64,000 nucleotides of DNA from Halalkalicoccus sp. CG83 (GTDB taxonomy: Archaea > Halobacteriota > Halobacteria > Halobacteriales > Halalkalicoccaceae), in NCBI RefSeq assembly GCF_037081715.1, contig NZ_JAZDDH010000001.1, positions 124,001-188,000 on the forward strand, written 5' to 3'. The first letter of the stretch is position 1; the number at the start of each line of letters is the position of its first letter. Below are positions 48,362 to 58,763 of the stretch, in pieces. The notes beneath the pieces were generated by a model that worked only from the letters and a program-made list of their open reading frames with translations, was not told where the DNA came from and did not search any database. A program made the translations under genes and the position numbers.

Positions 48362-48386
48362 TTCCAGGCGAAACGAAGGGGTTGTG
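48361..48386 (+). other. Origin-recognition-box-like element (plus orientation)
   Basis: TTCCAGGCGAAACGAAGGGG followed by TTG, starting at the last base of the preceding stop codon. It has the ORB core (TCCA..CGAAACGA) and the G-string, and is nearly identical to elements at the origin 5.6 kb to the right. Confidence 0.65.
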
Positions 48387-52124: not shown

Positions 52125-52190
52125 ACCCCGAGCGAGGACGTGGGGACGCTTAAATGGTCACCATCCGCCGTCGCGGATCATCCGGGTACG

Positions 52191-52277
52191 ACCGTCGTTT
52201 CGTGTGGAGCTACACTACCGACGGGGGAACGGACGGGTGTGTTCCGGATGGTTGCAGGCGAAACGAAGGGGTCGGGG
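52191..52277. other. Pair of ORB-like elements in divergent orientation
   Basis: Minus-strand TCCACACGAAACGACGGT (52191-52208) and plus-strand TTGCAGGCGAAACGAAGGGG (52252-52271, continuing TCGGGG to 52277) point away from each other, as in the core origin. They lie between the 31-aa peptide promoter and the 3' end of oapC, 1.8 kb left of the core origin. Confidence 0.65.
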
Positions 52278-53971: not shown

Positions 53972-54001
53972 CCACCCCCACCCCTTCGTTTCGAGTGGAG
54001 A
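53972..54001 (-). repeat. ORB 1 (minus orientation, long G-string)
   Basis: On the minus strand: TCCACTCGAAACGAAGGGGT followed by GGGGGTGG. Core dyad TCCAC..CGAAACG plus G-rich tail. Pairs with the box at 54177. Confidence 0.85.
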
Positions 54002-54176
54002 CCGACGAGGGACGGCCCCCGACCGAAGAACGGGATCGTTCCGGCGGAAACCTCCTTCTAGAGAAGAAGGAACCCGGTCCGAACCGTATCCTGTTACTGT
54101 ACTACGGATCTGGTTGTGTCGGTATCTACTTAGGTGTTTCCCCACCTAGATCGGACTCGCGGGGACCCTCTCGAAC

Positions 54177-54206
54177 GGTTCCACCCGAAACGAAGGGGTG
54201 GGGGTG
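54177..54206 (+). repeat. ORB 2 (plus orientation, long G-string)
   Basis: Reads TCCACCCGAAACGAAGGGGT followed by GGGGGTG. Differs from ORB 1 at a single base over about 26 nt, in the opposite orientation, so the G-strings face outward around the 175-nt central segment. Confidence 0.85.
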
Positions 54207-54420: not shown

Positions 54421-54445
54421 ATTCCACTCGAAACGATGGGGTTCG
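54421..54445 (+). repeat. ORB 3 at the orc1 5' end
   Basis: TTCCACTCGAAACGATGGGG followed by TTCG. It lies 24 nt before the orc1 ATG at 54469 and overlaps an upstream in-frame ATG at 54436, which argues that 54436 is not the start. Binding here could also autoregulate orc1. Confidence 0.8.
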
Positions 54446-54468
54446 ATGGGGGCGTCCGATCACGAACC

Positions 54469-55956
54469 ATGACCGCGAACGACTCACCACCCGAGAACCC
54501 CCCGACTGACGACCCGTCGGACCGGGAGTTCGCCGTCGACGTCGAGGACGTCCTCGAGGACGAGAAGACGAGCTCACAGGGACTGTTCGACGATCTACTC
54601 AGCGGCGAACCGATCTTCGAGAACAAGGAGGTGCTCCGACCCTCGTACACGCCCGACGAGCTCCCCCATCGCTCGGACCAGATCAACAAGATGGCGACGA
54701 TCCTCGTCGCCGCCCTCCGGGGGGAGACGCCCTCGAACATCCTCATCTACGGGAAGACCGGGACGGGAAAGACCGCGAGCGCGAAGTTCGTCAGCCAGGA
54801 GCTCGAGGGCACCTCGAGGAAGTACGACGTCCCCTGCGAGGTCGAGTACATCAACTGCGAGGTGACCGACACCCAGTACCGGGTGCTCGCCCAGCTCGCG
54901 AACAAGTTCATCGAGGAGAACGAGGAACACGTCGAGCGCCGACTCGCCGACCTCGCCGACCTCCGCGAGGCCGTCGAGGACGGATCGACCGCACCCGAGG
55001 CGACTCCCTTCGCCGACGTCGAGGGGATCGATCGACGCATCGAGGAGCTCGAGGCCGAGGGCGAGGAGATGGAGCCGGTGCCGATGACTGGCTGGCCGAC
55101 CGACCGCGTCTACCAGGAGTTCTTCGACGCGGTCGACTACCGCGAGCGCGTGGTCGTGATCATGCTCGACGAGATCGACAAGCTCGTCGAGAAGAGCGGC
55201 GACGACACCCTTTATAACCTCTCGCGGATGAACTCCGAGCTCAGCAATTCGAGAGTGTCGATCATCGGCATCTCGAACGATCTGAAGTTCACCGACTTCC
55301 TCGACCCCCGGGTGAAATCGAGCCTCGGCGAGGAGGAGATCGTCTTCCCGCCGTACGACGCCAACCAGCTCCGGGACATCCTCCAACACCGCGCGGACAT
55401 CGCGTTCGAGCCCGCGGCGCTGACCGACGACGTCATCCCGCTGTGTGCCGCGTTCGCAGCCCAGGAACACGGCGATGCACGCCGTGCGCTCGACCTGCTC
55501 CGGACCGCGGGCGAGCTCGCGGAACGGAGTCAGGCCGAACGCGTCGACGAGAGCCACGTCCGCAAGGCCCAGGACAAGATCGAGCTCGACCGCGTCGTCG
55601 AGGTGGTCCGCACGCTGCCGACCCAGTCGAAGCTCGTGCTGTTCTCGATCATCTTACTCGAGAAGAACGGCGTCGACAACATCAACACCGGCGAGGTGTT
55701 CAACATCTACAAGCGCCTCTGCGAGGAGATCGACGCCGACGTGCTCACCCAACGGCGCGTCACCGACCTGATCAGCGAGCTCGACATGCTGGGGATCGTC
55801 AACGCGATCGTCGTCTCGAAGGGCCGGTACGGCAGAACGAAGGAGATCAGCCTCTCGGTACCGACGGAGGAGACCGAAGCCGTGCTTCTCGCGGACTCGC
55901 GCCTCAGCGACATCGAGGAGATCCAGCCGTTCGTCCAGGCCCGCTTCGACAACTAG
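54469..55956 (+). CDS. orc1: Replication initiator Orc1/Cdc6
   Basis: 495 aa from the ATG at 54469. AAA+ ATPase that binds ORBs and loads the replicative helicase. Walker A GKTGTGKT (~95-102), Walker B VVIMLDEIDKL, sensor I IIGISNDLKF, the initiator-specific DPRVKSSLGEEEIVFPPYDANQL, lid domain HGDARRALDLLRTAGELAERS, and a C-terminal winged helix (NGVDNINTGEVFNIYKRLCEEI...QRRVTDLISELDMLGIV). An acidic insert (about 150-200, LADLREAVEDGSTAPEATPFADVEG) lengthens the AAA+ domain. Position beside oapA and the origin, and upstream of Sec11 and PolD small subunit, marks it as the oriC1-linked copy. Confidence 0.96.
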   Translation: MTANDSPPENPPTDDPSDREFAVDVEDVLEDEKTSSQGLFDDLLSGEPIFENKEVLRPSYTPDELPHRSDQINKMATILVAALRGETPSNILIYGKTGTGKTASAKFVSQELEGTSRKYDVPCEVEYINCEVTDTQYRVLAQLANKFIEENEEHVERRLADLADLREAVEDGSTAPEATPFADVEGIDRRIEELEAEGEEMEPVPMTGWPTDRVYQEFFDAVDYRERVVVIMLDEIDKLVEKSGDDTLYNLSRMNSELSNSRVSIIGISNDLKFTDFLDPRVKSSLGEEEIVFPPYDANQLRDILQHRADIAFEPAALTDDVIPLCAAFAAQEHGDARRALDLLRTAGELAERSQAERVDESHVRKAQDKIELDRVVEVVRTLPTQSKLVLFSIILLEKNGVDNINTGEVFNIYKRLCEEIDADVLTQRRVTDLISELDMLGIVNAIVVSKGRYGRTKEISLSVPTEETEAVLLADSRLSDIEEIQPFVQARFDN

Positions 55957-57245: not shown

Positions 57246-58763
57246 GTGTCGAGAACTACGGACGGGCGGATCGTCAGCGAACTCGCGGCCCGGGGCTACA
57301 ACGCCGACCGCGAGGCGATCACGCTGCTCGCCGGTGCGTCCGACCCCGACGCGGCGATCGAGCGCGCGGTCGAGGCCGCCCCGGCCGACGCGCTCAAACT
57401 CACCGGCGAGCACGTCCGGTCGCTGCTCGAGGCCGACTCCCGCGAGGACCTCCGGGACCCCTCCGTTTCGACTGGAGATCTACCGGACAGATCGGCCGAC
57501 GGCGGCGCAGTAGCTCCAGTCGAAACGACGGGGGAACGCGAGCCGACCGATCCGGACCGCCGGTGGATCGAGATCGCCGGCGACATTACCGGCCGAAGCA
57601 CCGGTACGGGGGAGTACGGCGACTTCGTCGACGTCTTCCGCGACCGCTACGAGCGACTCGCGGGGAAGCTCCGTCGCCGGGTGAACCACCGACCCGCGAG
57701 CGCCGTCCAGGGGATGACCGGCGGGAGCGATGCGGAGATGATCGGGATGGTCAACGACGTCCGATCGACCGCGAGCGGCCACTGGCTGGTCGAACTCGAG
57801 GACACCACCGGCGTCTTCCCCTGTCTCGTGTTGAAGGACCGCGACATCGCCCCGCTGGTCGAGGAGCTGGTCTACGACGAGGTGATCGCGGTCCGGGGCA
57901 CGCTCGCGGACGACGCGGGCATCCTGTTCACCGACGAGATCTTCTTCCCGGACGTCCCGCATACGTTCGAGCCCTCGACCGCCGATCGCCACGTCCAGGC
58001 CGCGCTGATCTCGGACGTCCACGTCGGCAGCCAGGAGTTCGCCGCCGACGCCTGGAGCCGCTTCGCCGACTGGCTCCACACCGCGGAGGCCCAGCACGTC
58101 GAGTACCTCCTGATCGCGGGCGACATGGTCGAGGGCGTCGGGATCTACCCCGATCAGGACGAGGAGCTCTCGATCGTCGACATCTACGAGCAGTACGAGG
58201 CGTTCGCCGAACACCTGAAGGAGGTACCCGGCGACCTCGAGATCGTGATGATCCCCGGCAACCACGACGCCGTTCGGCTCGCCGAGCCACAGCCGGGGTT
58301 CGACGAGGAGCTCCGGGGGATCATGAGCGCACACGATGCACGGATCACGGGCAACCCCTCGCTGGTGACGATCGAGGGCGTCTCCGTGCTCATGTACCAC
58401 GGGATGAGCCTCGACGAGATCATCGCCGAGCTCCCCGCGGAGAAGGCGAGCTACGACGAGCCCCACAAGGCGATGTACCAGCTGTTGAAGAAGCGCCACG
58501 TCGCGCCCAAGTACGGCGGGAAGCTGCGGGTCGCCCCCGAGGAACGCGACTACCTCGTCATCGACGAGGTGCCCGACGTCTTCCACACGGGCCACGTCCA
58601 CAAGCTCGGCTTCGGCACCTACCACAACGTGGTCTCGATCAACAGCGGCTGCTGGCAGGAGCAGACGGCGTTCCAGCGCAGCGTCAACATCGACCCCGAC
58701 GTGGGCTACGCGCCGATCGTCGACCTCGACACCCTCGAGGTCACGGCGAGGAAGTTCACCTGA
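57246..58763 (+). CDS. DNA polymerase D small subunit (DP1, exonuclease)
   Basis: 505 aa from GTG at 57246 (SRTTDGRIVSELAARGYNAD). An N-terminal helical domain (to ~65), a variable linker (~70-105), an OB fold (NDVRSTASGHWLVELEDTTGVFPCLVL) and a calcineurin-like phosphoesterase domain with all metal-site motifs: ISDVHVG (~253-259), IAGDMVEG, IPGNHDAVR, YHGMSLDE and TGHVHKLGFG. These give PolD its 3'-5' proofreading nuclease. Together with the large subunit, DP2, elsewhere, it is the main archaeal replicase. The variable linker DNA carries two ORBs. Confidence 0.95.
   Translation: MSRTTDGRIVSELAARGYNADREAITLLAGASDPDAAIERAVEAAPADALKLTGEHVRSLLEADSREDLRDPSVSTGDLPDRSADGGAVAPVETTGEREPTDPDRRWIEIAGDITGRSTGTGEYGDFVDVFRDRYERLAGKLRRRVNHRPASAVQGMTGGSDAEMIGMVNDVRSTASGHWLVELEDTTGVFPCLVLKDRDIAPLVEELVYDEVIAVRGTLADDAGILFTDEIFFPDVPHTFEPSTADRHVQAALISDVHVGSQEFAADAWSRFADWLHTAEAQHVEYLLIAGDMVEGVGIYPDQDEELSIVDIYEQYEAFAEHLKEVPGDLEIVMIPGNHDAVRLAEPQPGFDEELRGIMSAHDARITGNPSLVTIEGVSVLMYHGMSLDEIIAELPAEKASYDEPHKAMYQLLKKRHVAPKYGGKLRVAPEERDYLVIDEVPDVFHTGHVHKLGFGTYHNVVSINSGCWQEQTAFQRSVNIDPDVGYAPIVDLDTLEVTARKFT
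57454..57537. repeat. Divergent ORB pair inside the PolD small-subunit gene
   Basis: Minus strand at 57456-57477 reads CTCCAGTCGAAACGGAGGGG followed by TCC; plus strand at 57514-57533 reads CTCCAGTCGAAACGACGGGG followed by GAAC. The two share CTCCAGTCGAAACG and have G-strings facing outward, 36 nt apart, the same geometry as the core origin pair. They lie in the poorly conserved linker of the protein. Confidence 0.75.

Follow-up and report, generated by a model that had tools for sequence, protein, structure and literature searches.

A conserved pair of origin recognition boxes inside the haloarchaeal gene for the polymerase D small subunit, a possible non-initiating docking site for Orc1/Cdc6

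Introduction

How archaea control the initiation of replication is poorly understood (PMC4010727). In Haloarcula hispanica, the region oriC2D carries 11 origin recognition boxes (ORBs) downstream of cdc6E, has no origin activity, and restrains oriC2; it has been proposed to titrate the initiator, and a plasmid with only two oriC2D ORBs was held at an intermediate copy level (PMC3936714). In E. coli, datA and the DnaA-box clusters near the origin are non-origin sites believed to reduce free initiator once they have been copied (PMC3936714, PMC12371093). Furthermore, an Orc1-family protein of Sulfolobus, the non-initiator paralogue Orc1-2, acts at DNA sites outside origins as a DNA-damage-responsive regulator of expression (PMC9738581).

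Surveys of haloarchaeal origins have sought ORBs in the intergenic DNA next to cdc6 genes (PMC3528665; PMC4595724), and a search so confined would miss a site inside a gene. The figure legend describing the oriC1 neighbourhood in one study names inverted ORBs and the polymerase gene and no boxes within that gene (PMC4010727). A literature search of the main texts of freely available journal articles found no description of ORBs within a polymerase gene.

Here, we describe a divergent ORB pair inside dp1, the gene for the small subunit of polymerase D (PolD). Like oriC2D, it places initiator boxes outside an origin core. However, oriC2D is an intergenic region of 11 ORBs associated with oriC2 and cdc6E, whereas the DP1 pair is intragenic, of the oriC1 type, class-wide, and of one fixed geometry. 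An oriC1-type origin is likewise intergenic and adjoins orc1/cdc6, whereas this pair lies within dp1. The E. coli sites depend on bacterial DnaA and unrelated boxes, and datA is non-coding (PMC12371093), whereas the DP1 pair is coding. Sulfolobus Orc1-2 is comparable as an Orc1-family protein at sites outside origins, but it is a non-initiator paralogue that acts on gene expression.

Results

We analyzed a window of 64,000 nucleotides from Halalkalicoccus sp. CG83 (contig NZ_JAZDDH010000001.1, positions 124,001 to 188,000). In window coordinates, the genes and the pair are as follows.

54436..55956, plus strand: orc1/cdc6 of oriC1, the presumed binder (NCBIfam NF001625, E 1.4e-198; Pfam Cdc6_C, 2.6e-32)
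57246..58763, plus strand: dp1, PolD small (exonuclease) subunit (NCBIfam NF003116, E 2e-283; Pfam DNA_pol_E_B, 7e-14)
57458..57476, minus strand: left box, short-type ORB, TCCAGTCGAAACGGAGGGG, 0 mismatches to TCCAGTCGAAACGNNGGGG; codons CCC TCC GTT TCG ACT GGA (P-S-V-S-T-G)
57477..57514, no strand: spacer between the boxes, 38 nt, not AT-rich, sequence unconserved
57515..57533, plus strand: right box, short-type ORB, TCCAGTCGAAACGACGGGG, 0 mismatches to TCCAGTCGAAACGNNGGGG; codons gcT CCA GTC GAA ACG ACG GGG (P-V-E-T-T-G)

dp1 starts 1.3 kb downstream of orc1/cdc6, and the boxes occupy linker codons between the DP1 N-terminal region and the OB/phosphoesterase part. The pair sits roughly 210-290 nt into the coding sequence and so does not have the position of a promoter-type Orc site. 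The initial annotation had reported two excellent boxes within the PolD small-subunit gene, and both are present there, each matching the ORB consensus core TCCA-N3-GAAAC-N3-GGGG. The distance of about 3 kb that it gave to the core origin is borne out (3.3 kb to the oriC1 inner boxes at 53981-54198), and its gap of 36 nt fits 20-nt inverted-repeat arms, whereas 38 nt separate the 19-nt cores. The oriC1-like geometry that it proposed is correct for the G-strings, which point outward in both; the two differ in start-to-start spacing (57 nt versus 199 nt) and in what follows GGGG.

In the window, there are eight ORB matches with at most 3 mismatches, against 0.58 expected, and none of 100 shuffles reached eight. 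The perfect TCCANNNGAAACNNNGGGG occurs seven times in the 3.64-Mb genome: three times at oriC1 (53981, 54180, and 54423), twice in dp1, and twice elsewhere (window position 48363, and position 811816 of contig C1, outside the window). A reversed control pattern of the ORB core had no perfect match in the whole genome. From the shuffles, the genome count, this control, and the search of 391 genomes described below, we reject a chance origin of the DP1 pair. As for the sites elsewhere, the plus-strand ORB at 48363-48381 begins 2 nt past the stop codon of a 558-amino-acid open reading frame, 5.6 kb from oriC1, and the one at 811816-811834 (G000:C1, L212) is more than 600 kb from oriC1. A degraded divergent pair (2 and 1 mismatches, 63-nt spacing) lies across oriC1 at 52190-52271. 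A scan for bacterial promoters and terminators is uninformative for archaea.

Next, we asked at which level the boxes are selected. The DP1 linker is unalignable apart from P-x-V-S-x-G and P-x-E-T-x-G. For a codon test, sequences were picked by these peptides only, with the codons unseen, and the DP1 body served as background. In the left-box peptide, GTT was used in 42 of 42 sequences (6% of Val codons in the body) and GGA in 42 of 42 (background, 6%). In the right-box peptide, CCA was used in 60 of 61 (7%), and GAA and GGG were each used in 61 of 61 (26% and 22%). Third-position T was found in 42/42 and 61/61, against a background of 6.5%, while third positions left unspecified by the ORB varied among haloarchaeal loci. 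When 395 conserved codon columns were ranked by rare-codon use, the top four were box codons (0.97-1.00); the 99th percentile outside the linker was 0.30. Kinship does not explain this fixation, because one tree is common to all columns. Rare synonymous codons fixed at box positions together with variation where the ORB is free point to selection on the DNA, as the initial annotation had suggested when it proposed that DNA function, not protein function, holds the sequence, and we regard it as nearly certain that the pair is a functional site at the DNA level. The box peptides are the sole conserved islands in the linker, as would be expected if a short linear motif conserved in the protein (P-x-V-S-x-G ... 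P-x-E-T-x-G) spelled ORBs by chance. However, this explanation is contradicted by the same codon pattern, is hardly credible, and was rejected as the cause of the boxes. We also make no claim for a motif at the dyad center of the spacer, TCGNNCGA, since C at second and G at first codon positions explains its appearance.

A fixed-spacing search recovered the pair at 57 nt in 237 of 391 haloarchaeal genomes, nearly always once, and the reversed pattern had no match in the same 391 genomes. Among the genomes with a second pair, one (G148) has the region twice, and most others have weak 3-mismatch or duplicate matches. We then scored the best divergent pair in the DP1 linker at 81 loci (80 named haloarchaeal loci and the window). 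At 67 of these loci, it had at most 3 mismatches over 26 positions and lay in one and the same reading frame throughout, and the spacing was 57 nt in 59, 54 nt in 5, 72 nt in 2, and 69 nt in 1; the gap between the boxes was 38 nt in 59 of the 67. The distance from the dp1 start codon to the pair varies across haloarchaea, whereas the box-to-box spacing does not. Compared by eye in genomes with both positions listed, the pair directly precedes the conserved DP1 body.

To these counts a tree of 121 DP1 proteins adds 101 haloarchaea and 20 outgroup genomes of the same phylum. The pair was present in 71 of the haloarchaea, the plus box only in 14 (Halorubrum and several other lineages), the minus box only in 3, and neither in 13 (Haloquadratum is boxless), so that 88 of 101 have at least one box. 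None of the 20 outgroups has intragenic DP1 boxes, although several have the cdc6-DP1 neighbourhood and origin ORBs. The simplest reading would be a single gain on or near the haloarchaeal stem followed by several decays (of the minus box in Halorubrum and of both boxes in Haloquadratum), with the caveat that this quick tree is weakly supported in parts and that parsimony alone cannot separate gain from loss. Lineages with one box or none imply that the function of the pair is dispensable there.

Within the genus, six relatives have the pair at 57 nt with 2-4 mismatches of 26, and the three to four perfect ORBs found in four of these relatives are all outside DP1; two sister-genus genomes have the pair with 0 mismatches. 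Loss of the boxes in close relatives, which the initial annotation had named as evidence against its proposal, is therefore seen in part, in the six degraded copies, and not in the two sister-genus genomes or across the class. Either constraint may be weaker in this genus, or this genome may have kept or regained the perfect form.

Other ORB-like sites were seen near DP1. Halobacterium bonnevillei (L110), which has the DP1 plus box only, carries a divergent ORB pair directly after cdc6 (46-nt spacing, 1 mismatch), 2.5-2.6 kb before DP1. We also looked for compensation, that is, a new divergent pair where the DP1 pair had decayed, and found no clear pattern across genomes. Four of five family-f19 outgroups (L151, L152, L153, and L160) have a single plus ORB-like site of the TCCAGTKGAAATWNTGGGG type, with 1 mismatch, about 200-430 nt after DP1. 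Two family-f25 outgroups share an ORB-like site, TGCAGTGGAAATRGAGGGG, which has 2 mismatches and occupies matching positions of the DP1 body (+1154 in L149 and +1037 in L150 from the DP1 start), which may be protein-driven.

The boxes at oriC1 and at the start of orc1/cdc6 in the window are as follows.

53981..53999, minus strand: oriC1 left ORB with an extended G-string, which runs to about 53973
54180..54198, plus strand: oriC1 inner right ORB with an extended G-string, which runs to about 54206
54423..54441, plus strand: short-type ORB overlapping the ATG (54436) of orc1/cdc6, a candidate autoregulatory site

The DP1 boxes share the TCCANNNGAAACNNNGGGG core and the inverted, outward orientation of the oriC1 ORBs but have neither their extended G-string nor their AT-richer stretch nor their wide spacing. 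The extended G-string (a T followed by a run of G) was present in 106 of 106 oriC1 boxes, in 2 of 102 DP1 boxes (Fisher 3e-58), and in 0 of 53 cdc6-proximal boxes; DP1 boxes mostly terminate in GGGGTC. Mutation of this element abolished oriC1 function in Haloarcula hispanica (PMC3936714). The AT fraction was 0.35 in the DP1 spacer, 0.33 in the flanking linker, and 0.50 between the oriC1 boxes. The spacing of the oriC1 boxes was 181-337 nt at 52 of 53 loci, whereas that of the DP1 boxes is fixed. At the free positions, DP1 boxes have GTY where oriC1 boxes have CYY, and often RGA or RGG where those have GAA; these variants are also found among oriC1 boxes, and the bases that do not vary spell the ORB core exactly. 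The pair persists in several genomes whose DP1 is far from orc1/cdc6: at about 20-26 kb in Haladaptatus halobius and Halomicrococcus, 54 kb in G168, 94 kb in Halovenus salina, and 194 kb in G081. The distant cdc6 gene of G081 has an ORB upstream, where a full inverted pair is unconfirmed. Thus, the pair is tied to the dp1 gene and not to the origin.

At each of 62 loci, the 700 nt upstream of cdc6 contain a plus-strand ORB, often located at -15. This cdc6-proximal box fits a promoter-type Orc regulatory site better than the DP1 pair does, and the short ORB at the start of orc1/cdc6 looks like a putative site of Orc1 autoregulation.

Discussion

We propose that the oriC1 initiator Orc1/Cdc6 docks at this conserved pair within the dp1 coding sequence without initiating replication there, and we give this reading a probability of roughly 45%. 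That Orc1/Cdc6 binds the boxes is itself very probable, judging from the sequence. Being class-wide, fixed in geometry, selected as DNA, and of a short-ORB type distinct from the oriC1 boxes, the pair has the marks of such a site, and it accounts for two of the seven perfect ORBs in the genome. On the other side, the boxes are degraded in the genome's own genus, and some lineages have the plus box only or neither. One Orc1 would sit on each short box, the two molecules facing outward, and the docked proteins would form a complex of set geometry without opening the DNA. Because the pair would usually be copied soon after oriC1 fires, a second copy of it would leave less Orc1 for oriC1. Titration or initiator feedback of this kind is our tentative choice for the main role, somewhat short of an even bet. 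The precedent is an origin-inactive, ORB-rich region that restrains oriC2 (PMC3936714). Two sites absorb few molecules per chromosome, however, where oriC2D has 11 ORBs; the DP1 site is two boxes in a fixed pair and not a large cluster, and pure titration requires neither the fixed 57-nt spacing nor a location in dp1. The intermediate copy level of the two-ORB plasmid in H. hispanica nevertheless suggests that a two-box site could matter.

That the pair stayed in dp1 where the gene had moved is also compatible with gene-linked control. If Orc1 bound inside the gene blocked or otherwise regulated dp1 transcription, the amount of the PolD small subunit would be tied to initiator state. The presence of the pair in dp1 genes as far as 194 kb from orc1/cdc6 is consistent with this, and the other conserved short-type ORB, at the start of cdc6, suggests that short ORBs mark Orc1-controlled genes. 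Yet it is the start-codon distance that varies widely and the box spacing that does not, a promoter site would escape the conflict with coding, and no other perfect ORB in the genome is linked to another replisome gene (811816 being unannotated). We put control of dp1 itself well below even odds; between the two roles, both of which the initial annotation had raised, feedback is the more likely and control of dp1 transcription nearly as likely. A broader version, in which a haloarchaea-wide intragenic pair of short ORBs is bound by the initiator and couples its state to polymerase supply, may be correct but falls well short of even odds; extended-G boxes would then fire the origin, and the short boxes at cdc6 and dp1 would regulate. 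A part in initiation itself fares worse. The composition of the spacer and the missing extended G-string disfavor a stand-alone origin, which the pair very probably is not. The initial annotation had raised the possibility that the pair extends the origin, and its outward orientation and ancestral position about 3 kb from oriC1 would suit an accessory element, be it an additional site for helicase loading or the outer portion of oriC1. We consider this improbable, given a spacer poorer in AT than that of oriC1, the lack of an element reported essential for oriC1 replication (PMC3936714), and retention at 94-194 kb. Equally small is the chance that an Orc paralogue or a nucleoid protein with ORB-like specificity is the binder: haloarchaea have many Orc paralogues, and the DP1 boxes differ from oriC1 boxes at free positions and end in GGGGTC, but their fixed bases and shared variants speak against it.

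A non-initiating docking site for Orc1/Cdc6 is the reading that we prefer; being unlike a replication origin, the pair is probably an unreported control site. Since the element is class-wide and can be removed by synonymous changes that leave the protein unaltered, it offers a clean test. The comparison with oriC1 suggests two functional classes of ORB, told apart by the extended G-string. The long conservation of a DNA element within an essential gene is also a caution that selection on DNA may leave conserved peptides in disordered linkers as a by-product.
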